NCBI GenBank assembly: GCA_944388545.1
Contig: CALXJE010000004.1
Span: 1-49,452, forward strand
DNA from: an uncultured Clostridia bacterium
GTDB lineage: Bacteria > Bacillota > Clostridia > TANB77 > CAG-465
Direction: 5' to 3'
Length of the DNA: 49,452 nt
The notes beneath the pieces were generated by a model that was not told where the DNA came from, did not search any database, and worked only from the letters and a program-made list of their open reading frames with translations. The position numbers were made by a program, and so were the translations under genes. Below are positions 30,954 through 49,452 of this stretch, one piece after another (within the stretch, counting starts at the first letter, position 1; every line of letters starts with the position of its first letter).

Positions 30954-32927
30954 CTAAGGCATAACATGAATTGTTGAATCATAAAAATAAATGTCTCTTA
31001 TCATAGGAGTAGCCATAATTCTATATTCTGCTATTTTTTTGTTTTTAAAATCTAATGCTCCTGCAATTTGAACATCAAAGTGCACATTATAATTAGAATT
31101 GTTATATTCTACAGGTACGTGATTTATGTCATATCCTGTGCCATTAGAAAAATCACCAAAAACTAAATCTTTTCTTACATCTGCAGAAACAACTTCAAAT
31201 TCTACCATTACTCTTACATGTAGCAAGTCTTGAGGAAGCATTATTGTTCCTGGTATTGCACAACCTTTACCCTTCAATATGATTTTATTATCTATCACAT
31301 ATTGAACGTACTTAGCTGCAGATTCTCTTGATGTTATACCGTATCTCATAACCTTACTAATAAAATCCTCTTTATTAATAGTGCGATAATCTACATTTAA
31401 TATTGCATCATAATAATGATAAGAGTTACCTATTAAATTAAATGTATATTTAAAATAATCTGGATGGCACTCAATTGGCTTATGAACGTCATATATATTA
31501 CTATGATTATATGGAGTTTCATATACTTCTTTAGGAATTCCTTTTATTATAAATGGATATTCATAGTAATTATATGGCATTTTAGATATATCTGTTTCTA
31601 GTTCTACAGTATCTTGTCCTAAAAACTTTGCAATATAATTTCCCATCTCATGCTGATAGGTATTATATTTTTCTTGTAAACATAGTATAGTGTAGTTTAA
31701 CATGTATCTTGTAATTGGAGCATCTATAGGAAAATACATTGTATTTGATTCATAAAATTTTTTGTTATATTTATACGTAATAGAAGCACTTGCCACTGCT
31801 CCTTGTTCTTGCCTAGAAAGCTCGTCCATATTGGAGAATTCTGCCATTTCTATAATTGTATCTGATCCAAAATCCATTATTTTGTTATCCCAGTTTTGTA
31901 AATTATTATGTTCTACTGAATTAGCTGTACATATGGCAAATAACAAATTTCTCATAGTAATTCCTTGACTAAAATATTTATCCTTATCAGCCTCTAATCC
32001 TTGAACTTCTAACATATATTTAGCCATTCTTTCTATTTTCAATTCTCCATTATCAAGCTTACGGTATACATCTGCTTCTCTTGGTATTGTAAAATACATT
32101 GCGTATAGTAAATCTTCATACGTTGCTAACCCTTGCCAATCAGTTACACCATAATAATTAGAATAAGGCCACATATACTTAATGTCATTTTGTACCTGAT
32201 CAAACTTGCTATACATTACTTCAATTATATATTGTTCTTTTTCATTATACTTTTTACAACTAAATGTATCTGTCATTGTAGAAATTAACTTTTCTGAATC
32301 AATGCATTTCAAATTTACTAACCTATCTAAAATTATTAATATTTCTTGCGGTGTTATATTCTCTTCTGGGCAAAAATTTCCTTCTCCCTTGCCTGCAATA
32401 ACACCAAGACTTGCTATCTTATTTATACTTTTTTCTGCCCAATGACCAGTTATGTCATTAAATCTAATATTACTAATAGAACCATCTATATCTTTTAATA
32501 TATTAGACCTATCTAACATAGCTACAAACTCTGACCGTGTAACATTATTATTCGGCTTAAAAGAACCATCTTCATATCCAGATATAACACCTTCACTTGC
32601 TACTGTAATTATTCTTTCTTTTAATATTCCTTCTAAACTAGAGATATCATTAAAAGTTTTGCTTACTTTTTTTTCACTACTAAAAGACATAATGTTATAT
32701 AGTATATTTGCTATTTCAACTCTCTTAGTTTCTCTAGTATTATTTTCAAGAAATATTAACTTATACTTGATACCTGTATCTACTGCCCAACTACTAAAAG
32801 GATAATATTTTTCTACATCTGACCAATTAGTAGCTTCATTAGATGCAATTACAAAGCTAGTATTACAAAGTAATAACACAATTGTAATTAAAAAACTAGT
32901 TACCCGCATAAAAAACTTTTTTTTCAT
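30954..32927 (-). CDS. SLH-domain surface protein
   Basis: The 657-residue protein has a signal peptide (about 1-29). Three S-layer homology domains follow at about 35-85, 90-145 (SGYEDGSFKPNNNVTRSEFV) and 156-210 (FNDITGHWAEKSINKIASLG). SLH triplets bind pyruvylated secondary cell-wall polymer and fix proteins to the surface. The C-terminal part (about 460-657) is an unknown domain shared with the membrane protein at 38982-40412; both have EVYE, DYRTIN and a similar NKIIL strand. An AGGAGA box and a consensus promoter precede it. It lies downstream of, but separately terminated from, the pilin-like operon. Confidence 0.88.
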   Translation of the reverse strand: MKKKFFMRVTSFLITIVLLLCNTSFVIASNEATNWSDVEKYYPFSSWAVDTGIKYKLIFLENNTRETKRVEIANILYNIMSFSSEKKVSKTFNDISSLEGILKERIITVASEGVISGYEDGSFKPNNNVTRSEFVAMLDRSNILKDIDGSISNIRFNDITGHWAEKSINKIASLGVIAGKGEGNFCPEENITPQEILIILDRLVNLKCIDSEKLISTMTDTFSCKKYNEKEQYIIEVMYSKFDQVQNDIKYMWPYSNYYGVTDWQGLATYEDLLYAMYFTIPREADVYRKLDNGELKIERMAKYMLEVQGLEADKDKYFSQGITMRNLLFAICTANSVEHNNLQNWDNKIMDFGSDTIIEMAEFSNMDELSRQEQGAVASASITYKYNKKFYESNTMYFPIDAPITRYMLNYTILCLQEKYNTYQHEMGNYIAKFLGQDTVELETDISKMPYNYYEYPFIIKGIPKEVYETPYNHSNIYDVHKPIECHPDYFKYTFNLIGNSYHYYDAILNVDYRTINKEDFISKVMRYGITSRESAAKYVQYVIDNKIILKGKGCAIPGTIMLPQDLLHVRVMVEFEVVSADVRKDLVFGDFSNGTGYDINHVPVEYNNSNYNVHFDVQIAGALDFKNKKIAEYRIMATPMIRDIYFYDSTIHVMP

Positions 32928-33054: not shown

Positions 33055-33089
33055 AAAAATGAAGAAGAAATTCTTTCTTCTTCATTTTT
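33055..33089 (-). terminator. Terminator of the pilin-like operon
   Basis: A perfect 16-bp stem (33055-33070 with 33074-33089) with a 3-base loop and T5 at the minus-strand end, four bases after the last stop codon of the operon. Confidence 0.85.
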
Positions 33090-33093
33090 TCAA

Positions 33094-36000
33094 TTAGTCA
33101 TAATCTGATGAAGCTGTTGCATCTGTATCGTATAGCATAACTGTTCCTTTAATCTTATTATACATTGTATTATTTAATACCCATACACCTTTTTCTAGTG
33201 GTAATCTAATATTATTTGCTGAATTTCCAGGATTTGAAAATCCTAAATATCCTTCATAATCCCATTGTGATGTATTAGTATTTGATGATGCGTTTTTATC
33301 GTTTTGAGAATAACTTAATTTTTTACTAATAGTTGTCATAGAAGAATCTTTATATTCCCAAACTTTTATATCAAACTTTACTCCTATATATCCTCCAGTT
33401 AATCTATCTCTATTAATATCATATTTTCCATCTGTTCCTTTTCCAATTACTATAGTAGAATTAGGTAGTTTATATTCTCCATACCAAATCTGAACGAAAT
33501 TATTGTCTGCTTGTTCCATCATATTAGACTTTAATTCTATGTTCTTTGTTGTTCCTAAAGCCACAGTTGATTTTGATATTGACGATGATGAGAATCTATA
33601 GCCTTCATCTGTTCCCTCAAACGTCAATCTATAACCATCGTCTGGTACAAAATACAATTTATAATTAGATATGTCAACATATTTATTACTACTATTCTTA
33701 TAATATAATTTAATATCTTCTGTATATCCTGTTGCATCTTTTTTTATGAAGTAAAAACTTGGTGTTATAACTATCTTTTTATTTGCATTTGCTCCTGTTG
33801 TTTTTAAATCAAAACTAAATTTATATCCTAGTTTTGGGGCCCTAGTATACGTTGTTGTAGTATGTTTATATGGTCCAACCGGTAATATTTGTTGTTTAGT
33901 TGCTCCTATCTCTGAAACATCTCTTGTAACCATATCGTTATATGCCGTAGTATAAATATTCCATTTTTTAATACCAGAATAATATGCTTTTCCTGAATGT
34001 ACATTTGTTGTTGTAGATGTAGATTTTCTAAATATATTTTTCCAATCTACGTCTTTAATATCTGTAACTTTAAAATCATATACTCTACTAATGTTTTCTG
34101 TCTCTACTGTTTCTTTTCCAACATAATTACTATGTCCAAATATATTTTTTTGGTCATAATATTTATTATGATCCTGATTATTACTTCCTGTTCCAGAGAA
34201 AACATTTTTACCATTAGAACCGATATATGTAACTGTATCTGATATTCTTCCTCTTAGCACGTCATACTCAAGTGAGCTAGGTGTATTTACTGCAACTGCT
34301 CTAACCTCATAACTGTTTTGTTCTTGATTAACTACATCAGTAGCTTCATTTGGATCAGCTAATGCATATGCACTTACTGTCACTGTTCCTTTTGTTATTC
34401 CATTATACTTATTATATATAGGGCCTATCCATGTCTCACTACTTGCTGAATTACTAGAATATGCTCTATCAGTTCCTCTTGCATCCGTAATTCTAATATC
34501 TTGAACATCAAAGTCAAACTTAATATAGTATTGCTCTAAATATTTTGAAGTTTGAATTCCTGGATATGTAGAATTTTGATTGTTTGCATCTATTTGAATT
34601 GTAAATCTAGAATTCTTTTGAATTTGTTTCTGCTGATTTGTGTTATAATTTTCAGTGGTATGATCAACTCTTATATCACTACTATTATTTCCTATAATTT
34701 TAGTTGTAAACGATATTGGAGTAAATACATCTACTATATCTGCATCAGTTCCATTATTATCACCATATTCCCAAACTTCATCTTTAAGTGTACCTGCTGA
34801 TATTAATGTGGTTGTACTTGGACTTGCTACTCCATTATTATTATACATTTCTGTATCTACAAAAGTGTTACCACCTGAACCTGTTACAGCCTTTTTCTTA
34901 CTTCCGTCATTCCAATTATGATTTCCATTTCTAACATTGCTATCATTAACATCAAAGTTTAATATATTATTTCCTGAAAGTAATGTATAATATATTTTTC
35001 CGTATGAATATCTTTTACCATTTAATCTTGATTCTGGTATAGTTAAATTTTGTAAATTATAATAATCTCTTCCACCATAAGTGCCATAATTTGTTTTACT
35101 ATCTGATGGTAAATATTTATTCTTTACAGATTTAGGATATACTGTTGCTGTATCTACTTTATCTGAATCTGTTGTTGTATACACGTATTTTGATCCTGAC
35201 TTGGTTGTTGTTTTTGACTTTGTATATTCTGATAAATCAATTTTTCTTGTTGCTTCTTTTTCTGATCTAGTATATGTATTATTTAATGTACTTGACCTAT
35301 TATTATCTTCACCTACCAATTTAATAGTTTGATTTTTTACACCATCTTTAAAACTTATTTCATCATTTTTTACATATAATGTAGCTGTTAAATTTGTTGA
35401 TGTAGGATTATAAGCTGAAGAATTTATTCCTTTAAAGCTCTCAATTTTTGCCGCATCTGAATGATTTATATTATTTAATAATGTATTTATTTTATTTTCA
35501 GAATCACCTTTAGGTACTGATACTCTTACATCGCCATTTTCATTATTATATGTGTAATACAATCTATTACTTAAAGTTTTTGAAGTTCTATTATTGGTTT
35601 CTTTATTGGATGATTTAACAAAACTTGCATCATTAAACCCATCTTTGTATTTATCTGTTGTTGTGGCTGTATAAGTTTTTCCGTCAAATAAAGGTAATCC
35701 ATTATTGTCATATCCATCTATTAATTCTATTTTATTAATAGTATACATCCTCATGTTTTTTACTTTATAATATGTATATTTGTATGGTATTTTATATGTA
35801 TATGTTCTTGATACCTTTCCTGTAGCTGTTATATTCTTATATGTAGCTGTCCATGTTCCTGTACATCTTGCTGTTGCCTCTTTTTCACAAGGATATGAAC
35901 CACCCTCTCCATCATAACACGTACCTATATATGTATATTTATATGTATTAGTACATGCTCCTTCTTTTTTATCTGAAGATGTTTTCTCACACTGCCCACT

Positions 36001-38973
36001 ACAACTTGATGACCAATCTTTATATGTAACTGTATATGGCTGAGTTATAGTATAGTCAAATGAATATGTGTTTTCAATTGTTTGCTCTTTTATATTTATT
36101 GCTCCAAGCATATATGTATATGCATTATCTACAGACATCCTTAGCACTTCACTAGATGGTATAACATCATATACTGCTTGTGTATCAGTATTAGTATGAT
36201 TGTCTACTTTATTTGCAAATTGACTACTTTGTGATACCGAATAAAAAGCTAGTCTTCCTACTTTAGGTCTTTCTATTGGTGTTCCTGTATGCTTACTTGA
36301 ATAGTAAAAATCCATTATTATTATATCGGCACTATTACCAGATGGTGTTTTTCTAGATTCTGTAAGCCAACTATCATATTTATTACTATTTCCATTTAAC
36401 TTGCTATTCATTCTATTTTTAACAGTTGTTAAATTTCCGTCGTTTGTTGTAGTCATATTCGAACCAACACAATTATAATTATCGTTTGGATCTCTAAATA
36501 CCTCTAGACTTTCATTTGAATTTATAGTATAACGCTCTTGATATCCAGAATAATTTCCAGAATCTTTATTTTTATTAAATCTGCTACTTCCATTTTTCTT
36601 AGCCACACCTCTACCATTTAAGGTTTTACCACTTCTTACTGCATCATCAATACTATTAGAATTAATATTATTTATTCCTGTAATATCTATATGTCTTACA
36701 TAAACGTATTTTTTTCCAGATCCTCCTGGTGGATCTATTATTGTTGGATCATCTTCTTTTATATAATAAAAGTCTACTACTATCGCATTATAATTATTAT
36801 CTGGTATAGTTACAGATGTATAATTGTAATTTCTATCAACATAACTATCTTCTGATTGTAATATATCGCCATTTTTAAAATTAACAAAATCTATAAGATT
36901 ATTATTAAAAGCATTTTTGGTTGCTTCATCTCTTTTTACTTCTGCTAAGTCTACTCTATCTCCTTTACCAACTGCAGAGCCTACACAAATATAATCTCCA
37001 TATGTTTCTTTCTTACTACTATTTAATAAATCCCAATACGATCCTCCTGTTTCATGATCATACTTTATATTTGCAATTCTTAGTGGACCTGTTCCTGAAT
37101 TTTTTTCAAAAACTTCTTGATACTCGTATACTGAACCATCTGGAATTTGATTTCTTCTAACAGGATTTACGCTTCCTGTTGATATATTCCAATCTGCTTG
37201 ATTTATAAGAAAGGCTTTACCAACACTCGTTTGAAGAAATGATACGTCAGATGTGTCATTATATATATAACCTATATTTGTTTTATCAGTTACATCTATA
37301 TGTCTTACATATACTTGTGTAGGTTTTTTCTCATAATAAAAATCAATAACTATAACTGGATTTGATTCATTTCCTTGTACTACAACAGATGACCAGTCAG
37401 TACCTTTTATTACTCCTGACGTATTATTCATATATTGTCCGTTATCATCTTCTACTGTTCTAATATTAATTCCGTTTAATTTATCGTTTCTATTTTCTAT
37501 AGCTTTATCAATATCTTCTCCCTTTCCAACTACAGCACCTATACAATTATAGTTAGTACGAATATCTCTTTCTATATCTGACAATGCATATCCATTTATT
37601 CCTTCTATAGCTTCTGGATTAACTGCAGAAAAATATTGACCAGTTTCTGCATTGTTATATGCATATTTTAAGTTTCCAAATCTCCATGCTGTATCTAATA
37701 TAGGTTTAGTATAATATTCACTAAATTTATCACTTCCTGCATTCGTGTTTCTAGTTCCATCTGGATTTGCTACTGGATATTTATATGCATTTAAAGCTTC
37801 CCAGTTATCTGATGCATGTTCAATAGCTTGTGTATTTGTAACATCTATAATATTTTCATTTTCTATTGTTTCAGAATTTACTGTCTCTAAATTAGTGATA
37901 TCTACATGTCTTACATATATCTCTATCTCTTTACCTTTAGGCACTACAAATGTATTATCATAATAATTTATTACAGAACTTGATGACTGAATATAAGGAC
38001 CTCTTTCTCCAACTGTAGATGGTGAATCATACCATGCTTCTCTAGCAGACATGTAATTTCCTCTACTATCTTGTAGTCTTCTTTGTGTTGTCCCTCTTAT
38101 AGTAGTTTCCCAAAATTTATATGCAGTATCCATATTATGATAATAACAATATATGGTATCTCCTGGTCCATTTGCATTTTTGTCATTTAACCAACTTGTC
38201 CTAAGAACCGAAGATTGATAAACTTCTAAAGTGTCCGAATTGTTACCTTCACCAAATATATCCCATAATTTCTCAACTGTATTTTCAGTTAAAAAGTTAT
38301 CTGATACATATACTCCATTGTCAACCGCAAACCTATATAAATTGCTACTAAACAATAATATATCATTATTTGAAAAAAAATCCTCTCTTAATCCAGAAAT
38401 TTGAGTCTGACTTGCAGGTTGCCAATATACTCCAGAATAATTATTTGACTCTCCCCAAACATTATATAATACATTCGTACTCAAATCATATGATATTTTG
38501 GGCGAAGATTCAGGCCTTATTTCGCCTGTTGTATAATATCTAGGCTTTTTATAATCACTAGATGCACTTGCATCAAATTGTGTAGTATATTCACTATTTT
38601 GATATTTGTGAATATACTCATAATATCTTTCAAATGAAAAGGCATTATTATGCGGTTCATTGTTATTTGTATATGTATTATCAGAAGGTAACTCTAAATC
38701 TTCTCCTCTCATATCCGATACATATACCCAACGATCTTCAGATACAGGATATACTCTATTATTATAATTGATAATTGTTGTTGGATATGCAGATACTTGT
38801 TTTTTATATAATAGTTCCGGGAAATTAGGGTCTTCTCCTTTTCCTAATTCTTCCTTTGGAATTACTATATTTCTTATTTGATATCCATAGCTATTATTTG
38901 TTATGCTTACTATAAATAGAAGTAATATACTTATTAATACTGTTTTTACTACTTTGTTTTTATAACTTTTCAT
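33094..38973 (-). CDS. Giant secreted repeat protein (1959 residues)
   Basis: A signal peptide (about 1-30) starts the protein; no LPxTG motif or C-terminal membrane helix is present. Three units about 200 residues apart begin with VRH[IV]D[IV]T (near 353, 556 and 758). Two of them contain YxCxG followed by VGKG, the third YNCVGS, and each unit ends in a DFYY strand. The motif is reminiscent of MucBP-type mucin-binding repeats, but weakly. A segment with six Cys (about 989-1035) could form three disulfides. The remaining 900 residues are Asn/Ser/Thr/Tyr-rich beta-like sequence. It is the last gene of the operon, 8 bases after its neighbour. An adhesive surface or pilus-tip role is inference. 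Confidence 0.8.
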   Translation of the reverse strand: MKSYKNKVVKTVLISILLLFIVSITNNSYGYQIRNIVIPKEELGKGEDPNFPELLYKKQVSAYPTTIINYNNRVYPVSEDRWVYVSDMRGEDLELPSDNTYTNNNEPHNNAFSFERYYEYIHKYQNSEYTTQFDASASSDYKKPRYYTTGEIRPESSPKISYDLSTNVLYNVWGESNNYSGVYWQPASQTQISGLREDFFSNNDILLFSSNLYRFAVDNGVYVSDNFLTENTVEKLWDIFGEGNNSDTLEVYQSSVLRTSWLNDKNANGPGDTIYCYYHNMDTAYKFWETTIRGTTQRRLQDSRGNYMSAREAWYDSPSTVGERGPYIQSSSSVINYYDNTFVVPKGKEIEIYVRHVDITNLETVNSETIENENIIDVTNTQAIEHASDNWEALNAYKYPVANPDGTRNTNAGSDKFSEYYTKPILDTAWRFGNLKYAYNNAETGQYFSAVNPEAIEGINGYALSDIERDIRTNYNCIGAVVGKGEDIDKAIENRNDKLNGINIRTVEDDNGQYMNNTSGVIKGTDWSSVVVQGNESNPVIVIDFYYEKKPTQVYVRHIDVTDKTNIGYIYNDTSDVSFLQTSVGKAFLINQADWNISTGSVNPVRRNQIPDGSVYEYQEVFEKNSGTGPLRIANIKYDHETGGSYWDLLNSSKKETYGDYICVGSAVGKGDRVDLAEVKRDEATKNAFNNNLIDFVNFKNGDILQSEDSYVDRNYNYTSVTIPDNNYNAIVVDFYYIKEDDPTIIDPPGGSGKKYVYVRHIDITGINNINSNSIDDAVRSGKTLNGRGVAKKNGSSRFNKNKDSGNYSGYQERYTINSNESLEVFRDPNDNYNCVGSNMTTTNDGNLTTVKNRMNSKLNGNSNKYDSWLTESRKTPSGNSADIIIMDFYYSSKHTGTPIERPKVGRLAFYSVSQSSQFANKVDNHTNTDTQAVYDVIPSSEVLRMSVDNAYTYMLGAINIKEQTIENTYSFDYTITQPYTVTYKDWSSSCSGQCEKTSSDKKEGACTNTYKYTYIGTCYDGEGGSYPCEKEATARCTGTWTATYKNITATGKVSRTYTYKIPYKYTYYKVKNMRMYTINKIELIDGYDNNGLPLFDGKTYTATTTDKYKDGFNDASFVKSSNKETNNRTSKTLSNRLYYTYNNENGDVRVSVPKGDSENKINTLLNNINHSDAAKIESFKGINSSAYNPTSTNLTATLYVKNDEISFKDGVKNQTIKLVGEDNNRSSTLNNTYTRSEKEATRKIDLSEYTKSKTTTKSGSKYVYTTTDSDKVDTATVYPKSVKNKYLPSDSKTNYGTYGGRDYYNLQNLTIPESRLNGKRYSYGKIYYTLLSGNNILNFDVNDSNVRNGNHNWNDGSKKKAVTGSGGNTFVDTEMYNNNGVASPSTTTLISAGTLKDEVWEYGDNNGTDADIVDVFTPISFTTKIIGNNSSDIRVDHTTENYNTNQQKQIQKNSRFTIQIDANNQNSTYPGIQTSKYLEQYYIKFDFDVQDIRITDARGTDRAYSSNSASSETWIGPIYNKYNGITKGTVTVSAYALADPNEATDVVNQEQNSYEVRAVAVNTPSSLEYDVLRGRISDTVTYIGSNGKNVFSGTGSNNQDHNKYYDQKNIFGHSNYVGKETVETENISRVYDFKVTDIKDVDWKNIFRKSTSTTTNVHSGKAYYSGIKKWNIYTTAYNDMVTRDVSEIGATKQQILPVGPYKHTTTTYTRAPKLGYKFSFDLKTTGANANKKIVITPSFYFIKKDATGYTEDIKLYYKNSSNKYVDISNYKLYFVPDDGYRLTFEGTDEGYRFSSSSISKSTVALGTTKNIELKSNMMEQADNNFVQIWYGEYKLPNSTIVIGKGTDGKYDINRDRLTGGYIGVKFDIKVWEYKDSSMTTISKKLSYSQNDKNASSNTNTSQWDYEGYLGFSNPGNSANNIRLPLEKGVWVLNNTMYNKIKGTVMLYDTDATASSDYD

Positions 38974-38981
38974 ATTACCTC

Positions 38982-40412
38982 CTAAAATTCATTTAAATTT
39001 CTTGCTTCCGTATCATTTACCATTAAATCTATAATAGGTTCCATATCTAACAATAATGCTTTGCTAAGTAATGTTGTGCCCATAGGAGTATCAATATATA
39101 TTGTGTATTTTTTATTTTTATATTTAACTTCTGATTGTCTACCTAGATCTCCTAACAATAAATTCTTATCTGTATCAGAATTCTTTATTTCAAATGTTAA
39201 TTTAACTCTAGCTCTAAATCTAACTCCATCTAAATAAAATATTGGTAATTGAACTTTTGCTGTTCCTTCAATAATTATTTTATTTTCTTTAACATAATCT
39301 ATATACTCATATATTTCTTCATCGTAATTATGTCTTAAATATCTATCAATTTTTTCATAAAATTCATCTTTATTTATTGTTCTATAATCAATATTTAATA
39401 TTGTATTATAATATGTTTCTGATCTATATTGCATTTGTGGATAATAATCTTTATCATATTTGTATGTCTCTGCTGGTGTTTTGTAATCGCCTTGGCCTTC
39501 AGATACACCTTTATATTCATATACTTCTTTATCTACTGAATATAGTATATATGGATATATCTCATAATTTGAAGGTTTGCTTTCTTCTTTAGTAACTAAT
39601 ACATCGCCTTCTGGCGCTACTGTATTATACTTCTCCACAAATTTTATAACTAGTTCATTAAACTGACCTTTAAATAATGTATTATTAATATTTAATCTCT
39701 TTTTACTATCATCTAATAATCCATTCTCTACAGCATCATTTATATATTGTCTTTCTTCCTGAGAAAATGATTGTAAATTTTTAAAACTACTTTCTTTTGT
39801 ACTAGAAACAGGAATATCTTTTATTTTACTCCTAGCATTCAAATAAGTAAATAAAGCTTCTTTATATGTTACTCCATCTTTATATGTTTCTTTAGTTATA
39901 TATCCTTCATCTATTATTTCAAAAGCTTCTGCTGTTCTTGCCCATTCATCACCTTCAAATTCACCTTTTGGACCAAAACCTATACTTTCCACTTCAGTAG
40001 TGTTATATAATGATGATAGTATTATTTTTACCATTTCTAACCTTGTAATTCTTTCACTAGATTTAGGAGATTCATTATTATACATTAAAGAAAAACCATA
40101 TAAATCCATTTGCTTCTCATATTTGCCATATTTCTTATTTAATATATAGCTTCTTATACCAATATATCCTCCTATAGCAATTGCAATAATAAAAAGTACT
40201 AATATAATCAACATATATAGTCTTTTATACTTTTTAAAATGTTCTTTTATATTTTTTTTCTTTTTTGTTTTTTTAGGAGCTGGCTCCGATATAACATTTC
40301 CTTTCAAATCGGTTGCAACCTTCTTGTTTACTTTTTTGGTTTTATCTGCTACTGTCTTTTTTTGAGTACTTTTTTTCTCACTTTTAGGTTTATTATTTAT
40401 TTTATCTTCCAT
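38982..40412 (-). CDS. Lys-rich membrane protein with SLH-like region and shared C-terminal domain
   Basis: The 476-residue protein has an unusual cytoplasmic N-terminus of about 65 residues rich in Lys and Thr. One membrane helix follows (about 68-90), then an outer part. Residues about 110-215 resemble divergent SLH domains (SERITRLEMVKIILSSLYN). Residues about 284-470 are homologous to the C-terminus of the SLH protein at 30954-32927, sharing KEVYE, ILNxDYRTIN, and a following KENKIIIEG strand. It would display that domain close to the membrane. A GGGAGG box supports the start, and it is spaced 20 bases from the gene before. Confidence 0.8.
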   Translation of the reverse strand: MEDKINNKPKSEKKSTQKKTVADKTKKVNKKVATDLKGNVISEPAPKKTKKKKNIKEHFKKYKRLYMLIILVLFIIAIAIGGYIGIRSYILNKKYGKYEKQMDLYGFSLMYNNESPKSSERITRLEMVKIILSSLYNTTEVESIGFGPKGEFEGDEWARTAEAFEIIDEGYITKETYKDGVTYKEALFTYLNARSKIKDIPVSSTKESSFKNLQSFSQEERQYINDAVENGLLDDSKKRLNINNTLFKGQFNELVIKFVEKYNTVAPEGDVLVTKEESKPSNYEIYPYILYSVDKEVYEYKGVSEGQGDYKTPAETYKYDKDYYPQMQYRSETYYNTILNIDYRTINKDEFYEKIDRYLRHNYDEEIYEYIDYVKENKIIIEGTAKVQLPIFYLDGVRFRARVKLTFEIKNSDTDKNLLLGDLGRQSEVKYKNKKYTIYIDTPMGTTLLSKALLLDMEPIIDLMVNDTEARNLNEF

Positions 40413-40432
40413 ATATACCTCCCTATACTAAT

Positions 40433-41521
40433 CTATGGCTTACAAACTGGACAAGGATAATATCCGTTTGTTGCTGCATCAATTTTATTCATATAATATC
40501 CACTAAATGATTTATAACTTGATTTATATACAGTACACTCTGTTTCTGAATGATAATAATTAAGTTCTGACAGTCCTGATGTTGCTTGAGAAACATAATA
40601 TCTTTTTGTTATTTTAAGCCCAGATATTCCATGTGCAACATAATTTAAACTTTCATTTCCTACATTTATTCCTTGTATAAATGCTATTATTCCAACATTG
40701 TCCACCATTTCTTCCCAATCAGATAATGCAATTGTTGGAAAAACAAATTCATAATCCACATCTGAATATAAATTATGATTACTAACTGCAAATGACATTT
40801 CTTCAGATACAGTGTCCGAAATAATTTGAGAACGTTTAAGTTTTAAATGTTGTATAACCTTTTCTCTTAGTTCATTATTATTGTTATATAATATTCCATT
40901 ATTATTTGTATCCTCTAGATAAAATCCCGTCGTAGTTCCGTTATCATTTATTACTGATATATAATCATCCATAGTGAATTCTACAGTTATTGTATCTAAA
41001 TTTATTATACCACCATTTTTCTCTAAGTCTTCTCCCGCTATAAGTGTATTACCTATTATAGCATAAGTATATGTAAAATATCTTTTAGGTTTTAATACAT
41101 AATCAGTATATTTTTCTCCTGACTTTTTATCGATGTAGTTATCTATAGAATAAATATATACTCCATTATAATCTACAACTGCAAGTGCAGGTATATGGCT
41201 TTTTATAAATGATTCTCCTGTGCTATCTCCTTTTATATCAAAATTATCATACAAAGACTCATAAAAAGTTTCGACAGCAACTCTTGCATTTACTGTTACT
41301 TTTTTCTCAGACACACCAGAATATCCATAGTCCACATCTTGTTCTTCACCTTCAACAGTCTTCATAACATATGTAGCATCATTTATGGCCGAATTAATTA
41401 TATTAGTATAGTACAACCTTTGTTCTTCTGTCTTAAGCAAAAATGACACATCTACATAAACTACAACAACTATCGGTATCAAGATTGCTACAAATATCAT
41501 TGCTAAATCTGTTGTTTTCAC
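40433..41521 (-). CDS. Anchored extracellular protein with zinc-type Cys/His tail
   Basis: The 362-residue protein has an N-terminal hydrophobic helix (about 7-30) without a cleavage site, followed by a long outer domain. The last 40 residues read YHSETECTVYK...ATNGYYPCPVCKP. This His-Cys...Cys-x2-Cys layout resembles the Ada-type zinc module found at the ends of many secreted Firmicute proteins. The start codon is GTG, preceded by GGGGGAG. It is the sixth gene of the operon. The N-terminal helix resembles a class of pilus minor subunits, but I do not recognise the middle domain. Confidence 0.78.
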   Translation of the reverse strand: MKTTDLAMIFVAILIPIVVVVYVDVSFLLKTEEQRLYYTNIINSAINDATYVMKTVEGEEQDVDYGYSGVSEKKVTVNARVAVETFYESLYDNFDIKGDSTGESFIKSHIPALAVVDYNGVYIYSIDNYIDKKSGEKYTDYVLKPKRYFTYTYAIIGNTLIAGEDLEKNGGIINLDTITVEFTMDDYISVINDNGTTTGFYLEDTNNNGILYNNNNELREKVIQHLKLKRSQIISDTVSEEMSFAVSNHNLYSDVDYEFVFPTIALSDWEEMVDNVGIIAFIQGINVGNESLNYVAHGISGLKITKRYYVSQATSGLSELNYYHSETECTVYKSSYKSFSGYYMNKIDAATNGYYPCPVCKP

Positions 41522-41539
41522 TATTCTCCCCCTTATCTG

Positions 41540-43300
41540 TTAGAATTTGTATTTTACTTTATATGCTATAGTAGCATTGTCTAAACATGACCTACCATCA
41601 TGACTAGGATCAGTTCTGTATTCAAATTTTAACTGTGTATATCTCTCTGCATTTAATGTTTTTGTAACTTCAAAATCTGAACCATTAGCAGAATTGGCTC
41701 GTAACGTTTCACCTCTAGGAACAGTACCGCCAGTTTCCGGATTTATAACTTCCCAAGTATTTGTGGTTCCTCTTACAAGACCTGTAATTCTCCACCAATC
41801 TTTTCCAGAATGTCTTGGTAATTTAACTGTAAAAGTATATTCTGAAATAGTAGCATTAGGAATTATAACGGTTGTCATCTCTGTAATTCCGTTTCTATTA
41901 ATAGATTGTTCTAAATAATTATTCATAATTATAAATCCATAACCTATTGTTTCAGATCTATTACCTCTACTGTCTACTGCGTAAGCAGAAACAGAACCTG
42001 TTCCTTCATCAAATTTATATTCCAAAGATGCTTCTCCTGCATTATTAGTATTAACTGTTCTTTCTATTTTTTGATCATTATTAGTAATAGTAAATACTAT
42101 TTTTTCGACCTTTGCACTTTCACTTACTAAAGTTCCTCTAGCATTAAATTTTATATTAGTTCCTCCACTAATAGGAGTAACAATATTATTCTCTATAACA
42201 TCTGGTGTAGTAGTCATCGTTATTTCAGGCTTATTTACACTATATGTTATTATAAATTCTTTTGAATTTAAAAGACCTAACGCACCTGCTCTAGTATCAG
42301 CTGAACCCGCCTTAATTTGCACCATTCCTCTTAAATAAGCATTATTTTCAAAATCATAATTTATACGACTTAAAGTTATCATATAACTATAGTCCCATGT
42401 TCCAGTGCTATTATTCGTAGCTTGCCTTTCCTCAACATCAACTTCAGCCTCAAAACCTATTATTGAAAAATATTTTTTTATATGATTTTCTCTAGCTGTT
42501 TTACTAGAAAGAATATTTCCTGATTCATCTCTTAATTGATATACATCTTTATATGAAAGTAAAAATTTAATTTTACTTTCATTTGCGTTCATATCATTCA
42601 ATCTTACAGCAAGTCCATAAATCGTTGTAAATTCTTCTAAATATTGATCATACACATCAGTTATTGCTTCATATTTAAACTCTTTTTCATTATAATCCAT
42701 AGGTCTAGATATTGAAATGTTTGCTCCAACAGTTTCTGCATCTTCGCCTTTTGCCCATTCATTTGTATATACAACCCCTCCATAATTTACAACTATTCTT
42801 TCAGTCAATTCACCTGTTAATAATCTATCTAGCAAAATTTGAGCTTGAGTTATATTAGTGTTTTTTACTCTAACATAGAATTTATATCCGTCATTTAGTG
42901 GATATATATCATCATTTATCACACTTGTCTCTTCAATTGAAGGGTCTAAATCTGTTGTTCCCATAGTAGCTATTATATCATCTGTATAGTCTACTACATA
43001 TTTTTCTTCATATGAATTAGCTGTATCTGTTTCTAATAATATAGGTTTATATACTTCTAATTCAACTTCATAAGAATGACCTGTTCTGTTTATCTCTGTT
43101 AAATAATTTTCATAATCTTCAGCCTCAATATATCCTTTATTTCTAGCAGCGTCAACAAAATTCGTAGTAGCCTTTACTACCATGTTTTTTGTTATACTGT
43201 CTTGTCTGGTTGCAACATTATATATAGGAAATAATACTATTATTATTACTGTTAATATCGACGCAAGTAAAACACTAATATTATCTTGCATAGCTACCAC
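41540..43300 (-). CDS. TadE-like pseudopilin with Ig-like extension
   Basis: The 586-residue protein begins with a hydrophobic helix (about 9-28). Residues 40-75 (VDAARNKGYIEAEDYENYLT, then YEVELEVYKP) form a module also found in the 1496-residue neighbour. A second shared module is VRVKNTNITQ...VVNYGG (about 140-175). The rest appears to be Ig-like beta domains, with VSAYAVDSRGNRSETIGYG near residue 455. The start codon is GTG; an ATG three codons later is too far from the AAAGG box. Layout suggests a minor pilin or tip adhesin. It precedes the 362-residue gene by 18 bases. Confidence 0.75.
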   Translation of the reverse strand: MVAMQDNISVLLASILTVIIIVLFPIYNVATRQDSITKNMVVKATTNFVDAARNKGYIEAEDYENYLTEINRTGHSYEVELEVYKPILLETDTANSYEEKYVVDYTDDIIATMGTTDLDPSIEETSVINDDIYPLNDGYKFYVRVKNTNITQAQILLDRLLTGELTERIVVNYGGVVYTNEWAKGEDAETVGANISISRPMDYNEKEFKYEAITDVYDQYLEEFTTIYGLAVRLNDMNANESKIKFLLSYKDVYQLRDESGNILSSKTARENHIKKYFSIIGFEAEVDVEERQATNNSTGTWDYSYMITLSRINYDFENNAYLRGMVQIKAGSADTRAGALGLLNSKEFIITYSVNKPEITMTTTPDVIENNIVTPISGGTNIKFNARGTLVSESAKVEKIVFTITNNDQKIERTVNTNNAGEASLEYKFDEGTGSVSAYAVDSRGNRSETIGYGFIIMNNYLEQSINRNGITEMTTVIIPNATISEYTFTVKLPRHSGKDWWRITGLVRGTTNTWEVINPETGGTVPRGETLRANSANGSDFEVTKTLNAERYTQLKFEYRTDPSHDGRSCLDNATIAYKVKYKF

Positions 43301-43314
43301 ATCATCCTTTCCAC

Positions 43315-43782
43315 TTAAATTTCTTTAAGTAATACTTCTAATATTTGACTTTCTTTATTATATTTAGTCATTGTAACTTCATAGTCTGAAGATATATTTA
43401 TATTTTTTCTTTTAAAAAACTCTTTTACAGTTTCTATTACTTCATCCGCATCATTCTTTGCCATAATTGTATCTTTAGTTATACGACTAGTTCCATTTTT
43501 ATTTTCTATTGTTATTAAAAACTTGCCAGAAGCTGTAAGTTGGCTCTGCTCACTCATATAACCTGCATAATACGCTAATAATTCATCCCCACTTACAACT
43601 CTTTTCTTAGTTTCAGAGACTGAAACAACCCTACTTCCAGTAGGTAAAGAAGCATCATATTCTAATGCAGTTTCAGCAACATCTCTTACTCCGAGCATTA
43701 AAGTAATAGATATGGATAATGCTATGATAAAAATTGTTATATTTACTCCTAATTGTACTGCTTGTTGTGCTGACTCATCCAT
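43315..43782 (-). CDS. Small pilin-like membrane protein (MDE class, third copy)
   Basis: The 155-residue protein starts MDESAQQAVQLGVNITIFII, a short acidic leader leading straight into a hydrophobic helix of about 22 residues. The outer part has VVSGDELLAYYAGYMSE and ends EVTMTKYNKESQILEVLLKE. Its N-terminus and general plan match the proteins at 43800-44180 and 48702-49136. Each has a helix followed by a T/S-x-x-x-R or 'I-x-G-x-E/D-[LV]' strand. GGAGGTGATAAT precedes the ATG. A Flp/TadE-type pilin is the best guess. Confidence 0.75.
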   Translation of the reverse strand: MDESAQQAVQLGVNITIFIIALSISITLMLGVRDVAETALEYDASLPTGSRVVSVSETKKRVVSGDELLAYYAGYMSEQSQLTASGKFLITIENKNGTSRITKDTIMAKNDADEVIETVKEFFKRKNINISSDYEVTMTKYNKESQILEVLLKEI

Positions 43783-43799
43783 ATTATCACCTCCAAAAA

Positions 43800-44180
43800 C
43801 TATATTTCTGTAAATACTATTTTATATATATTTGATTGTTCATTAAGATTTGAACTATATTTATTTGTGTAATCTAATTTATCGACATCTATACTATCAT
43901 TACAAACTTCACCAGAAGTAGTTTCTATACAAACATTTACAGAGTCATCATTTATATATTTCTTTACAGTATTTCTAACATCTAATCCTGTAAAAATATT
44001 ATTTGAATCTCTATACTTATCAAATTCATCAAGTCTTTCTTCAAAGGAAATATTTGTTTGTCCAACTTCTTTATATATACTTTGAATTTGCTCGAATTCA
44101 AATACTACTACAGTTAGTATTATTAAAGTAACAAATATTGACACACCTATAATTATTGCTTTTGTTGAAATTTCGTCCAC
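43800..44180 (-). CDS. Small pilin-like membrane protein (MDE class, second copy)
   Basis: The 126-residue protein begins MDEISTKAIIIGVSIFVTLI, an acidic leader and a single hydrophobic helix, followed by EFDKYRDSNNIFTGLDVRNT. Two cysteines (VCIETTSGEVC, about 88-98) may form a disulfide at the surface. It is a paralog of the small proteins at 48702-49136 and 43315-43782. The start codon is GTG with AAAGGGG seven bases before. Such proteins, with a helix and an 'F-x-x-Y...G-x-[DE]-[VL]' region, are typical of uncharacterised pilin genes in clostridial Tad-like loci. Confidence 0.75.
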   Translation of the reverse strand: MDEISTKAIIIGVSIFVTLIILTVVVFEFEQIQSIYKEVGQTNISFEERLDEFDKYRDSNNIFTGLDVRNTVKKYINDDSVNVCIETTSGEVCNDSIDVDKLDYTNKYSSNLNEQSNIYKIVFTEI

Positions 44181-44201
44181 AAATATTCCCCTTTCTAAAA
44201 A

Positions 44202-47200
44202 CTAATCTATTTTCTTTATTATTACTATACCATTTCCTTTATTGCCTGTCATTGTAGAAGTTGCTTTATATTCCAATGGATTTCTCATAGTTTCATTTCC
44301 TCTTTTTACCTCAAAAGATTCATATGTAATAGTTCTCCATCTTCCATTAGTATTTACATATGGAACTATTGCCTCAATAATTCCTTCATCATATTTACCT
44401 TCAAAAAGTGTTTTTAAAGGTAAGCGTCTTCCTTCTATTACATTAGTTTCATTTCTATATACATATGATAGACCTCCTCCACCACCTGCATATTCATCAT
44501 GAGCCGCACTTCCTCCAAAGTATCCAGCGCCTCCGGCACCTGCTCCATCAAAATCAACACTTCCACCTTGTCCTAAATCACCTTTTTCAGATTCTGGTAT
44601 ACTTTGAATGTTTCCATCTGCTTTTGTATAAGTATCATATCCTACAGATATAGCACTATCTAATGCTCCTTTTCCAACTAACAATTGATTTACTCCCACT
44701 GATGTTCCGTTTATTCCTCTTGAAAAGTTTCCGCCTGCACCACCGGTTCCATATCTTGTTCCGTTAGCTTTACTACTTCCACCGCCACCTGCAGCAACTA
44801 TTATTCTTGTAAGAAGTGATTCAACATCTTCAGGTTCTCCTTTTAAAAGTCTTACATCTGATGCTCCTCCGCCACCATATCCATTATATGAGTTTCCTCC
44901 GCCATTATATCCGCCGTTTTGTTCATTAGACTCAGAGTATTTAGTTCCTTGTCCGCCAACATATACATATAATGTGGTTTCTTCATTTATATTAAATACA
45001 CCTTTTACGTACGCTCCTTTTCCGCCAGTTGTTGATGCTTCATTACTTTCATATCCTCCACCTGACGCTCCCCATGCTTCTATTTGATATTTCCCAGGAT
45101 CTAACGTTATTTCTTCTGCCTGTCCTCTATATTTAAATATTCTACCTTCATCACTTGTAACTATACCATTTGTATCTGAAATTATAGTATCACCATTATT
45201 TTTTATGGTTCCACCATAATTTACATATATCTTAGGAATTTCTTCATTTCCTACATTTGCTGTAAACATAGAATAAAATACACTTGCAACCGTTTGATTT
45301 CTATTCTTAACTATAACATTGATCTGATCTCCTTCGTTCATTACATATGAATTCTCATTCATATAACTTAACGATTTATACATATCACCATTACCAAGCA
45401 TACACTCTCTTAAAAATTCTATTTTGCTTACTCCTGTATTATAAAATAGCTTACTAACTATTTGTTTGTCAGTTATTATTTCCTCATTAACCACATGAGC
45501 TTTTTCTATAATACAGTTTTCGCCAGATACATATGTAACTTTTTTATTTACTATTTGAGAATACTCTTCCCATTCTTCCACTCTCATATTATATATTTGA
45601 TATCTTTGTTCGTCAGTAAGTTCACTATAATCTGCCTCATATTTAACAATAACTTCTCCTGTATTTGGGTCTTTTATTGTTACACTTGGATCTACTACTT
45701 TTAAGTCAGAAGCATGTATTTGATTTGCACTAGCAAAAGTAACTGTTCCTTTTGAATTATATTCATTCACAAATTTAGTATATTCAAAAGTTCCATCATT
45801 GTTGAGATCTGTATTATCATAAACAATTTGAGTATTATCAATTTCATAAGTGTTTCCATTTCTTTTTAGTTTATCTATAGTAATATTAGCTCTATATATT
45901 TCTACATCATCTCTATTATATTTTAATGTAATTCTATTATCATTTAAATATTCAGATAAATACATATTATATAGTTCTTCATTATCATTTTCATATATAT
46001 CTATCATAGGAGAATTATATCCTGTAGGAGTTATTGATATATGAGCATCTTGCACTGTAATTTCACTTTCTGTACTATATGTAATAGGTGATCTTACAGT
46101 AATTTTACCTGTACGTTCAAATTCTGTTAAATAATTTTGATAATTAGGATTTAAATCATCGTACATTAAATCGTTATATTCACCTGACTCTGGCTCTATC
46201 ACTATATTACTTCTTGTAACTGTTACATCTTCTGGTTTATATATTCTCGCTGGGCTAATAGTTATTTGTGCATTTTTAGTATATTCATCTAAATATTTTA
46301 TATAATTAGAACTTTCCGATTCAATATTATAACTAAATGTATATACAGGAGCATTTGTTGTACTTGTTCCTTTTTCAAATATCTCTATTTTAGGATGTAT
46401 AACATTAATTTCATTACCTACAGCTATACTTGAATTTTCAAGCACTATTCTTCTATTTTGATAATATTGCTCAACATATTGCATTGTATCAGAAGTTATA
46501 TTAATTGGTGATTCTCCACCTATTAGTATTTGATTATATACCACATCTATATCCGATGCTGTAAAGACTGTTGCTGGAATATTAACCGTTGCATTTCCTC
46601 TATCTATGTTTTCAATTACTGTATTATTAAAAATAGAATTATATGCTGATTTATTTAAATATTGTAAAAATAAATATTTATTTCCACTAGTATCATTTAT
46701 AGAAACTGATTCATGATTAATTGTTAACTCATTTTTATAATATGTTTTTTTATGAGTATAAGTTATTTTACCATTAGTCACATACAAATTTATATAATTA
46801 TTTATTTCATTTGTATCTAAAACTTGAATATCGGTAGATAATTTGTTTTCAAGTACCATAAATGTTGGATTTACAATTGTTATTTTATCAGGAGATTCCA
46901 CTTTATTAGAATCATATTCTACTCCATCTATTGTCACTCTTCCTGTATCTTTTATTGTTTTAATCTCATCTATATTAGTTATATTTTTTTCTATAGAATC
47001 ATTTACTACAACTTTTGCACCTTCTATATAAATATCATTATTATTAAAGTCTACTATGTTTTCAATTTCTATAACATTTGTACTATTATCTAATAATTCG
47101 TCTACATATTTTTCATAATCTATATAATTATTATTAGTATCATGTATACTTCCTTTAACATGAACAATACTTATTCCATTTTGTCCATCTGTAAAGGTTC

Positions 47201-48692
47201 CACCTTCATCATAAACAATTTGATTAGTTGAACGATATTCTTCAATATAATTTGAAAAATTTAATGATCCTGTATTAAGGGCATTAGGATTATTCTTTTT
47301 ATTTATCTGCCCTGTTATATTTATAGTCCTTATCTCATCTGTTAATGGATTATATCCTATTGCATCTTTACTTTCAGCAAAAATTCTTCCTTTGTTTAGT
47401 ACAATAGTTTGATTATTCTTATATTCATCTGAATTTATTTTTTCTTTATATAACTCTTCTGCAGCATTTTTTTCTTCGTCTGTAAGCTCATTATATGTTT
47501 TATTTCCTATCCACATTGCAGCTCTTGAAATAACTATGTCAGAGTTTTCATTGTTATATACTTCTCCTTCAAAAGCGACCATATCTTGCCCATTGTTATA
47601 ATTTGAAATAAACTCATCATAATTTAGTGATGTTTCATAACCTGCTATTTGTTTATCTTCATTTATTTCTATACTTCCACTATTTACAGATATATTGGCT
47701 ATTCTATCTATTTTAGTATCAATACTTCCACTTACACTACTTACTCTAGTTCTATCTGCATACACTTCACCCTGATCATACACTAATCTTCCATCACCAG
47801 AAGTAACAGCTTCATCATATAAATTTTTCCATGTGTAGTAAAATTCTTCTGCTTGTTCCTGTGACAAATTCATTCCATCTATTAGCATAGAAGCCGGTGT
47901 AAGAACAATTCTGCTATTTCCAGAATTATATACAGGACCAGAAAAATATTCATCATTACTATTTACTGCTTGGTCATAATTTCCAATATAATTATTATAG
48001 TTTATAGTATTCGGTTCATTGCCTTGTTTATTTACAATTGTAATTCTTCCTTCGTTTACTGTCATATACGCAGGATTATATAGTTCTTGGTCAAAATTAT
48101 TTCCAGTTACTCTTCTTATATCTGCATATATTTCACCTTTATCTAAAATTATTCTATTCTGTTCTCTATATTCATCTATTTTTAATTTATATAACTCTTC
48201 TGGAGTTAAAATATTCTCTCCGCCATTAGTAAAATGAATTTGACTTCCATCTGCCATCGTCATTTCGGCTTGTACTACTTCTATATTAGAATTAGTTTTA
48301 TTATATATCTCTTCATTTATAGTAATAGTAGTTGGTAACTCACCATCTTCAGTAAGATATTTATCATAATCTAAAATATGTAACAATCTACCTTTTGTAT
48401 TATCTGCTTTCTTTTCATATATATATATAGCTGGATCATATCTTTTTTTTACATGTTCTATATTAACATCATAAGTATTATTTGTAGCATATAGCCCTGA
48501 TACAAAATCACTATACATTTCAGGAGAAATATATCCTTTGTCTCTTACATTATCAACAAAATTTTGGGTTAATTTTAGAGCCAAACTATATGATACATCA
48601 TCTACTTTTTCAAATGCTATATATACTGGTATTATAAATAAAATCATAACACCAACTATTGCTGCAATTATTTTTTGTAATGAACTCTCCAT
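44202..48692 (-). CDS. Giant pseudopilin with tandem repeats and glycine-rich tip (1496 residues)
   Basis: The N-terminus is a hydrophobic helix (about 9-27) followed by VDNVRDKGYISPEMYSDFVS, the same module as in the 586-residue paralog. Residues about 110-1090 are degenerate tandem repeats of strands of the form Y-x2-[YF]-x-x-E[YF]...G-x-[IV]-T...[ED][VI]-x-V...I-x-I. Near 1120-1165 the second shared module appears (VIVKNRNQT...YVNYGGTI). From about 1190 the protein has a glycine-rich domain (AWGASGGG, GGGGASDVRLL, AAGGGGSS, GGGGLSYVYRN), of the kind seen in adhesive surface proteins. AGGAGGGG lies before the start. It is the second gene of the operon. Confidence 0.82.
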   Translation of the reverse strand: MESSLQKIIAAIVGVMILFIIPVYIAFEKVDDVSYSLALKLTQNFVDNVRDKGYISPEMYSDFVSGLYATNNTYDVNIEHVKKRYDPAIYIYEKKADNTKGRLLHILDYDKYLTEDGELPTTITINEEIYNKTNSNIEVVQAEMTMADGSQIHFTNGGENILTPEELYKLKIDEYREQNRIILDKGEIYADIRRVTGNNFDQELYNPAYMTVNEGRITIVNKQGNEPNTINYNNYIGNYDQAVNSNDEYFSGPVYNSGNSRIVLTPASMLIDGMNLSQEQAEEFYYTWKNLYDEAVTSGDGRLVYDQGEVYADRTRVSSVSGSIDTKIDRIANISVNSGSIEINEDKQIAGYETSLNYDEFISNYNNGQDMVAFEGEVYNNENSDIVISRAAMWIGNKTYNELTDEEKNAAEELYKEKINSDEYKNNQTIVLNKGRIFAESKDAIGYNPLTDEIRTINITGQINKKNNPNALNTGSLNFSNYIEEYRSTNQIVYDEGGTFTDGQNGISIVHVKGSIHDTNNNYIDYEKYVDELLDNSTNVIEIENIVDFNNNDIYIEGAKVVVNDSIEKNITNIDEIKTIKDTGRVTIDGVEYDSNKVESPDKITIVNPTFMVLENKLSTDIQVLDTNEINNYINLYVTNGKITYTHKKTYYKNELTINHESVSINDTSGNKYLFLQYLNKSAYNSIFNNTVIENIDRGNATVNIPATVFTASDIDVVYNQILIGGESPINITSDTMQYVEQYYQNRRIVLENSSIAVGNEINVIHPKIEIFEKGTSTTNAPVYTFSYNIESESSNYIKYLDEYTKNAQITISPARIYKPEDVTVTRSNIVIEPESGEYNDLMYDDLNPNYQNYLTEFERTGKITVRSPITYSTESEITVQDAHISITPTGYNSPMIDIYENDNEELYNMYLSEYLNDNRITLKYNRDDVEIYRANITIDKLKRNGNTYEIDNTQIVYDNTDLNNDGTFEYTKFVNEYNSKGTVTFASANQIHASDLKVVDPSVTIKDPNTGEVIVKYEADYSELTDEQRYQIYNMRVEEWEEYSQIVNKKVTYVSGENCIIEKAHVVNEEIITDKQIVSKLFYNTGVSKIEFLRECMLGNGDMYKSLSYMNENSYVMNEGDQINVIVKNRNQTVASVFYSMFTANVGNEEIPKIYVNYGGTIKNNGDTIISDTNGIVTSDEGRIFKYRGQAEEITLDPGKYQIEAWGASGGGYESNEASTTGGKGAYVKGVFNINEETTLYVYVGGQGTKYSESNEQNGGYNGGGNSYNGYGGGGASDVRLLKGEPEDVESLLTRIIVAAGGGGSSKANGTRYGTGGAGGNFSRGINGTSVGVNQLLVGKGALDSAISVGYDTYTKADGNIQSIPESEKGDLGQGGSVDFDGAGAGGAGYFGGSAAHDEYAGGGGGLSYVYRNETNVIEGRRLPLKTLFEGKYDEGIIEAIVPYVNTNGRWRTITYESFEVKRGNETMRNPLEYKATSTMTGNKGNGIVIIKKID

Positions 48693-48701
48693 TTGCCCCT
48701 C

Positions 48702-49136
48702 CTAGTTTTCAAATGTTGCTACTATTACAGTTGCCGCTCCTCTATTATCTATTGCTAGACCGTAATTAAAATTTGGTCTTATATTTTCATCAAGAAATTG
48801 CTGATTTTCATCTGACCAATATTCTTCATTATCTATATTTAGTTTAGCATTTGTTTCTTCAAATTTCTCGTTCACATTTGGTTGATAAACATATATTTGC
48901 ATATCTGTATCATTATAGTAGTAATTAAGTAAATATCTAAGTTCTAAACCTGTGATTTTGTCTTTAGCAAGTATATCATTTACTCTATTATTTCCAGAAC
49001 TTGTAATATCATACCTATTTGCAACTGCTGCAGAATCTCTAGCAGTACTATAAAGAGTTACAATTAAAGTAATCGTTATAATTGCTACAAAAACACTTAC
49101 ACCTATAAATACTGCTCTACTTGCATTTTCATCCAT
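48702..49136 (-). CDS. Small pilin-like membrane protein (MDE class, first copy)
   Basis: The 144-residue protein begins MDENASRAVFIGVSVFVAII, a short acidic leader and one hydrophobic helix of about 24 residues. The outer part has NRVNDILAKDKITGLELRYL and ends with GLAIDNRGAATVIVATFEN. It has the same plan as the two other small proteins of the operon. As the first gene of the operon it is the most likely major pilin. AAGGTGAG precedes the ATG. No classical G/F prepilin cut site is visible, so processing may differ from type IVa pilins. Confidence 0.78.
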   Translation of the reverse strand: MDENASRAVFIGVSVFVAIITITLIVTLYSTARDSAAVANRYDITSSGNNRVNDILAKDKITGLELRYLLNYYYNDTDMQIYVYQPNVNEKFEETNAKLNIDNEEYWSDENQQFLDENIRPNFNYGLAIDNRGAATVIVATFEN

Positions 49137-49452
49137 ATTCTCACCTTTTTATACGCCTTAATTCTATCATAAAACGCGCATAAAATATATGTATAAAAGT
49201 ATATGTAATAAAAATGTATGTAACGTGTAATGTGTTTGTAATATTTTTCTGAGACATATATAAATACGGTCTTTTTTATAAATTATTACTCTATTTTATC
49301 TATATGATTGACTGTGAAAAATAGTATTTTTGCAAAAGAACAAAACAGGTTAATACACGAAACAAAGACGTGTTTAACATATATGTACATATATATAACT
49401 AAAGAGAATATATATGAGAGAAATCTATAATTTAAAGGAGGAAAAATTTTAT
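49137..49452. other. Divergent control region of the pilin-like operon and the right-edge gene
   Basis: This 316-base stretch separates the operon from the plus-strand gene that begins at the window end. On the minus strand an extended -10 (TGaTAGAAT, 49169-49161) lies 25 bases before the first gene, with no good -35. An imperfect hairpin (GTTAATACACG/CGTGTTTAAC, about 49353-49379) lies in the leader of the right-edge gene. I see no known riboswitch. Confidence 0.45.
49434..49452 (+). promoter_or_regulatory. Ribosome binding site and cut start of a plus-strand gene at the right edge
   Basis: AAAGGAGG (49434-49441) is followed by nine bases and AT at 49451-49452. The next base outside the window is presumably G. 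This marks a new gene divergent from the pilin-like operon. Confidence 0.55.

Follow-up and report, generated by a model that had tools for sequence, protein, structure and literature searches.

A putative divergent Tad-like surface pilus locus of Clostridia, very probably divided by an assembly break at a small-subunit gene

The window analysed here is an entire contig (C4; 49,452 nucleotides) of a 1.15-Mb genome assembled in 49 contigs. Eight ORFs lie on its minus strand between positions 33094 and 49136, and the consecutive gaps from g1 to g8 measure 9, 21, 17, 14, 18, 20 and 8 bases. A first-pass annotation of this DNA had listed eight minus-strand genes 8–21 bases apart, three of them coding for small proteins that start with MDE and contain one helix, and all of these ORFs were recovered. 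The small proteins are g1 (48702–49136; 144 aa, N-terminus MDENASRAVFIG), g3 (43800–44180; 126 aa, GTG start, MDEISTKAIIIG) and g4 (43315–43782; 155 aa, MDESAQQAVQLG), each with a single N-terminal hydrophobic helix; in family scans, g1 matched no Pfam or NCBIfam family. The product of g2 (44202–48692) is a giant subunit of 1496 aa in the TadE position, adhesin-like, with a TM helix, internal repeats and a C-terminal glycine-rich domain of the ALK/LTK type (PF12810, E = 1.5e-43, residues 1194–1494). Its N-terminus is paralogous to that of g5 (E = 1e-12, 32%), the second TadE-position subunit (41540–43300; 586 aa), whose helix has a conserved FP and a charged end and is not preceded by a leader-like G/A. 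The TadF position is held by g6 (40433–41521; 362 aa), which has an N-terminal TM segment and a Cys/His tail (YPCPVCKP). The Lys-rich g7 product (38982–40412), conserved in family f1, has one TM segment and an extracellular part. Finally, g8 (33094–38973) codes for a secreted, repetitive protein of 1959 aa with repeated VYVRHIDxT units, a candidate surface adhesin whose signal peptide was assigned by eye; homologues at the same position in relatives are 900–2000 aa long.

Directly 3′ of g8 stands a minus-strand terminator (33055–33089) with a 16-pair stem and a T-rich tail, equalled by 0 of the shuffled sequences, and the transcription unit therefore ends at g8. The next gene on the same strand (30954–32927) codes for a wall protein of 657 aa with SLH domains (PF00395, E = 7.3e-24). 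It belongs to a separate transcription unit and has a promoter-like site of its own (33023–32995) that is perfect at 12/12 positions. This neighbour and g7 have a C-terminal domain in common (E = 7e-23), in agreement with the earlier remark that the locus combines very large tip-like subunits with an SLH link. Among the operon and its neighbour, the SLH domains and the glycine-rich domain of g2 are the only parts that Pfam names. Other families, too, have proteins of the SLH/g7 kind close to where the locus ends (G038, L046:14144–14785; L092:19701–20966), so that the link to a wall protein recurs.

The contig ends 316 bases upstream of g1, in sequence that contains an outward-pointing ribosome-binding site. 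Its last 127 bp (49326–49452, plus strand) are identical, and in the same orientation, to the last 127 bp of another contig of the genome, C29 (G000:C29:49032–49158). The terminal genes of C29 code, in order, for a CpaB-like SAF protein (404 aa), two CpaE-like proteins (CpaEa, 241 aa; CpaEb, 271 aa), a CpaF-family ATPase (630 aa) and a membrane protein of 686 aa, here called TadBC, and the shared 127 bp follow the TadBC gene. In relatives, the gene after TadBC codes for a further small subunit, X (N-terminus MDNAQKAIMIGVG), and the shared stretch carries the ribosome-binding site ahead of it. A remnant of 127 bases would be expected from an assembler working at k = 127 where two paths enter one repeat. 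Gene X was not found in any binned contig of this genome, as expected for a collapsed repeat; it probably lies in the assembly gap and is duplicated. We infer that C29 and the window are adjacent.

The 127 bp read in the same direction at both contig ends; an inverted copy of X or of its leader must therefore be present here, unlike in relatives. No inverted repeat was found between TadBC and g1 in G001, and an inverted X leader is thus not a general feature. Same-orientation X leaders make an invertible, phase-variable subunit segment between TadBC and g1 possible. The X leader (49326–49452) folds into hairpins (z = −2.58); one of these, ACACG..CGTGT, is kept in shorter form in G001 and could uncouple expression of the major subunit from that of the machine genes.

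Unbroken loci in four relatives (G003, G008, G022 and G010) have the order CpaB-CpaEa-CpaEb-CpaF-TadBC-X-g1-g2-g3-g4-g5-g6-g7-g8, with one or two copies of X and with local insertions or duplications. G001 has the same order up to g5, as far as the stretch was read, and g1 has homologues in the same position in all five genomes (54% in G001). Gene order in other Clostridia is thus conserved, and the eight-gene arrangement is not due to chance. In G001 (L037), a 271-aa gene that looks NAD kinase-like by eye (GGDGTFLEG..NTGTLGFLT) is located between X and g1. In G008 (L033/L034), the locus contains two paired transposase-like genes and a duplication of the g7–g8 module, signs that its adhesin end is being actively remodelled.

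We analysed 88 loci, taking upstream counts from the 64 with 6.5 kb of upstream sequence and downstream counts from the 72 with 6.5 kb downstream. CpaB, CpaEb and CpaF were each present upstream in 64/64 and CpaEa in 61/64; on the downstream side, a g5-type gene was present in 72/72, and X-type and g6-type genes in 71/72 each. The g7 and g8 genes were found mostly in the window's own family. A scan of bacterial and archaeal genomes gave at least 485 relatives of the platform protein, and the 80 that were retrieved all came from metagenome-assembled Clostridia. The platform is present in 134 of 158 near-complete genomes of the order and in 35 of 293 genomes of a wider class sample, among them 18 from family f10, which has larger genomes, and one each from two more families. 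In these other families the locus is minimal: CpaB-CpaEa-CpaEb-CpaF-TadBC is accompanied by two small subunits and a single subunit each of the g5 and g6 types. No relative of the system was found in the viral contigs searched. In several loci, from family f10 and others (L142–L149), a gene for a Ser/Thr protein kinase-like protein of about 470–496 aa lies just upstream of CpaB, which suggests control by phosphorylation.

The first-pass annotation had described the eight genes as lacking an assembly machine. If that were so, they would be an orphan subunit operon whose machine was lost or is borrowed from a type IV pilus, and within this contig there is indeed no ATPase or platform gene. However, a dedicated ATPase and platform, together with the two CpaE-like proteins and the CpaB/SAF protein, are encoded on C29, which shares its junction sequence with the window, and in every relative with enough flank these genes immediately precede subunits of the same types. 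The apparent loss of the machine is an assembly artefact, and we regard an orphan operon as extremely improbable. A weak T2SSE match on contig C46 lies in sequence where this pilus system has no intact gene. The reading that the subunits are those of a Tad-like pilus is retained from the first annotation; its machine is elsewhere rather than absent.

The profile of the 630-aa ATPase matches the solved CpaF of type IVc pili (8rkd, E = 8.6e-9) and NCBIfam TIGR03819 TadA (E = 9.5e-7), and falls below the Pfam T2SSE cut-off. Its Walker A motif (GEQGCGKTT) and THHAK box are invariant, and the Walker B-like GEVATD is nearly so. The SAF domain of the CpaB/RcpC protein (PF08666, E = 9.9e-5) gave the only fitting Pfam match above cut-off among the accessory proteins; the best Pfam matches of the two CpaE-like P-loop proteins, MipZ (E = 7e-4) and AAA_31 (E = 2e-4), are both below their cut-offs.

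The 686-aa platform protein had no Pfam match, and none of ten TadBC homologues scanned for T2SSF gave one. When the halves were aligned by hhalign to a TadB/TadC alignment, the N-terminal half matched over 220 columns (probability 93.6, E = 2e-7) and the C-terminal half over 180 columns (probability 77, E = 2e-5). A proper TadB/TadC alignment was needed for this result, as TadBC did not match one TadB-like sequence and its halves did not match each other. In two distant Clostridia, separate genes match the halves of TadBC one-for-one (E = 1e-6 to 1e-15). Because both halves align to TadB/TadC and split genes match them half for half, the protein is, at the level of its sequence, best read as a fused TadB–TadC. 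Its predicted structure is all-helical, and a helix list read by eye has two similar runs of one long helix, four short helices and another long helix; a Foldseek search against the PDB returned no platform protein at E ≤ 1e-3. TadB and TadC are thought to stem from the fission of a two-domain platform (PMC6668835). In about 16 of the 134 genomes (e.g. G052 (L049), G040, G054, G067, G070 and G104), the TadBC gene appears as two overlapping ORFs (approximately 430 and 280 aa). The break falls at much the same point each time, within the loop that links the halves, and could reflect fission of the gene, a programmed frameshift or indels that arose repeatedly.

With Tad or type IVc (Flp) pili, the system shares a CpaF-family ATPase, platform halves homologous to TadB and TadC, putative CpaE-like P-loop proteins, a CpaB/RcpC SAF protein, small helix-first subunits and subunits in the TadE/TadF positions, all in one gene cluster. 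In contrast to those pili, TadB and TadC are fused here, the locus contains no peptidase, the small subunits have a predicted alpha/beta head, and the subunits are not recognisable as Flp, TadE or TadF, lacking Glu5 and having an acidic leader of at most 7 residues; in family f1, giant adhesin-like subunits and an SLH-linked protein are added. Since recognisable Flp/TadE/TadF subunits and TadV were sought and not found, we call the system Tad-like by its machine and keep it apart from the canonical Tad family. The two loci with split platforms (G264 and G299) have relatives of X, g5 and g6 (hhalign probabilities 81, 78 and 91) beside a CpaF-type ATPase, and their platform proteins match the halves of TadBC; they differ in that the platform is made by two genes and the CpaF is recognised by Pfam T2SSE. 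In G264 (L151), the split-platform locus runs directly into ordinary TadE-type (GQSLVETALILP) and TadG-like genes and another CpaB-like gene, an arrangement that resembles two neighbouring variants of Tad. PilC/GspF and archaeal type IV pilus platforms resemble TadBC in having two platform domains in one polypeptide, but TadBC gave no detectable profile match to a PilC alignment.

The small subunits begin M-[DE]-N-A-x-K-A and enter the hydrophobic helix directly; there is no longer leader. Among 57 aligned sequences, M1, N3, A4 and A7 are invariant and Lys6 is at least 90% conserved. In 229 X-type subunits with a good ribosome-binding site, position 2 is E or D in 221, position 3 is N in 181, position 4 is A in 160, position 6 is K in 139 and position 7 is A in 178, followed by about 20 hydrophobic residues. 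Residue 12, the fifth after Ala7, is G, A, V, I or F, and Glu is never among its common residues; the acidic residue is at position 2 instead. No subunit scanned had a Pfam or NCBIfam match to Flp, TadE or TadF. Of the TadE-like pseudopilin pair described in the first annotation, the paralogy of g2 and g5 and the link to a Tad-like machine stand. X is predicted to form a helix (residues 2–57) with a small alpha/beta head (pLDDT 80). The long helix and small head give it a pilin-like outline, although Foldseek against the PDB matched no solved pilin. By the terms of the first annotation, its reading would fail if relatives had neither pilus ATPase nor platform, which is not the case, and if predicted structures were unlike any pilin, which holds in part.

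One way to read these N-termini is as a canonical Tad pilus in disguise, in which M-[DE]-N-A-x-K-A would be a very short class III leader cut after Ala7 by the genome's single type IV pilus prepilin peptidase. Class III leaders may end in Ala and do not always have Glu5 (PMC10191384), and a 7-residue leader is therefore possible for X. The conservation of Ala7 and Lys6, and a short polar stretch ending in Ala in 180 of 229 X-type subunits, are in keeping with such cleavage. So is the distribution of the enzyme: no A24/TadV peptidase is encoded in the locus, one A24 gene is present elsewhere in this genome (C8), most relatives have one per genome, and 154 of 158 genomes of the order have it. 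MSHA pili provide a parallel, as their loci also lack a prepilin peptidase of their own (PMC6668835); they differ from the present system in having a PilB/PilC-type machine and ordinary prepilins. Against cleavage, 90 of 93 g5-type homologues with a strong ribosome-binding site have no leader-like G/A motif, and 221 of 229 X-type subunits would have an acidic residue at position 2 of such a leader. Nor is there a polar leader in the distant relatives of X, which start with MEKFWAVILIF, and the type IV pilin-like protein of this genome has the form MKKG|ISLIV. On balance, we consider a short cleaved leader close to an even prospect. We also propose, tentatively, that the subunits are never cut by prepilin peptidase, Met1 being kept, acidic residue 2 replacing Glu5 and the fused TadB–TadC building the filament-like machines of the clade; this is possible but less likely than not. 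We rejected the absence of a peptidase as proof of unprocessed subunits: A24 is missing from only 3 of the 134 genomes that have the platform, roughly what incomplete assemblies would lead one to expect.

Taken together, gene content, order and conservation, the ATPase motifs and the TadB/TadC homology of both platform halves make it very likely that the eight genes supply the subunits of one divergent Tad-like (type IVc-like) surface pilus of monoderm Clostridia and form half of its locus, the assembly having broken at gene X. In the mechanism that we envisage, X, g1, g3 and g4, each a helix with a head, would be inserted in the membrane N-in/C-out, and the CpaF-type ATPase would drive the fused TadB–TadC platform to stack the subunit helices into a thin filament. 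The TadE/TadF-position subunits g5, g2 and g6 would act as initiators or form the tip, and the ectodomains of g2, with its glycine-rich domain, and of g8 may mediate adhesion. g7 and its SLH paralogue might hold the structure in place at the cell wall or guide it there.

The same genes could instead form a short pseudopilus that secretes or presents g2 and g8, in the manner of type II secretion or competence systems, rather than a long surface pilus. The giant g8 product is secreted and encoded at the end of the operon, each locus has many small-subunit paralogues, and minimal loci get by with two small subunits and the g5- and g6-type subunits, as might suit such a device. Yet g8 is missing from many loci that have the same machine and is therefore not a general substrate, and a Tad-type platform and ATPase are known builders of pili. 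We consider a pseudopilus unlikely, and the giant g2 and g8 proteins are best read as putative adhesins of a divergent Tad-like adhesive pilus.

The genome has two further loci of related kind. On C19 (L015:5718–13798), a second Tad-like locus codes for an 895-aa secreted protein, a DUF5411 protein (PF17424, E = 3e-52), CpaB, a CpaF of 475 aa, two TadB/TadC-like proteins and two TadE/F-like proteins, which are also without an obvious prepilin leader. The third locus, on C22 (L013:9152–14616), has no clear pilin; it codes for a VirB4/HerA-like ATPase that occupies two overlapping frames, a MinD-like protein, a CpaF-type ATPase and a T2SSF platform protein.

We found no description of fused TadB–TadC proteins or leaderless pilins in the open-access literature, and the genes appear to represent an undescribed, widespread and very divergent Tad-like clade. 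Standard searches would miss the system, as neither Pfam nor NCBIfam has a family that covers its platform or its subunits. The fused TadBC, the split versions in other Clostridia and the two-frame genes make fission and fusion of the platform directly open to study. Processing of prepilins is regarded as a universal trait of type IV filaments (PMC10191384), and here a clade found in about 85% of the near-complete genomes sampled from an order of uncultured Clostridia, and in part of another large family, has at best a minimal, unusual leader on its small subunits and none on those in the TadE position.
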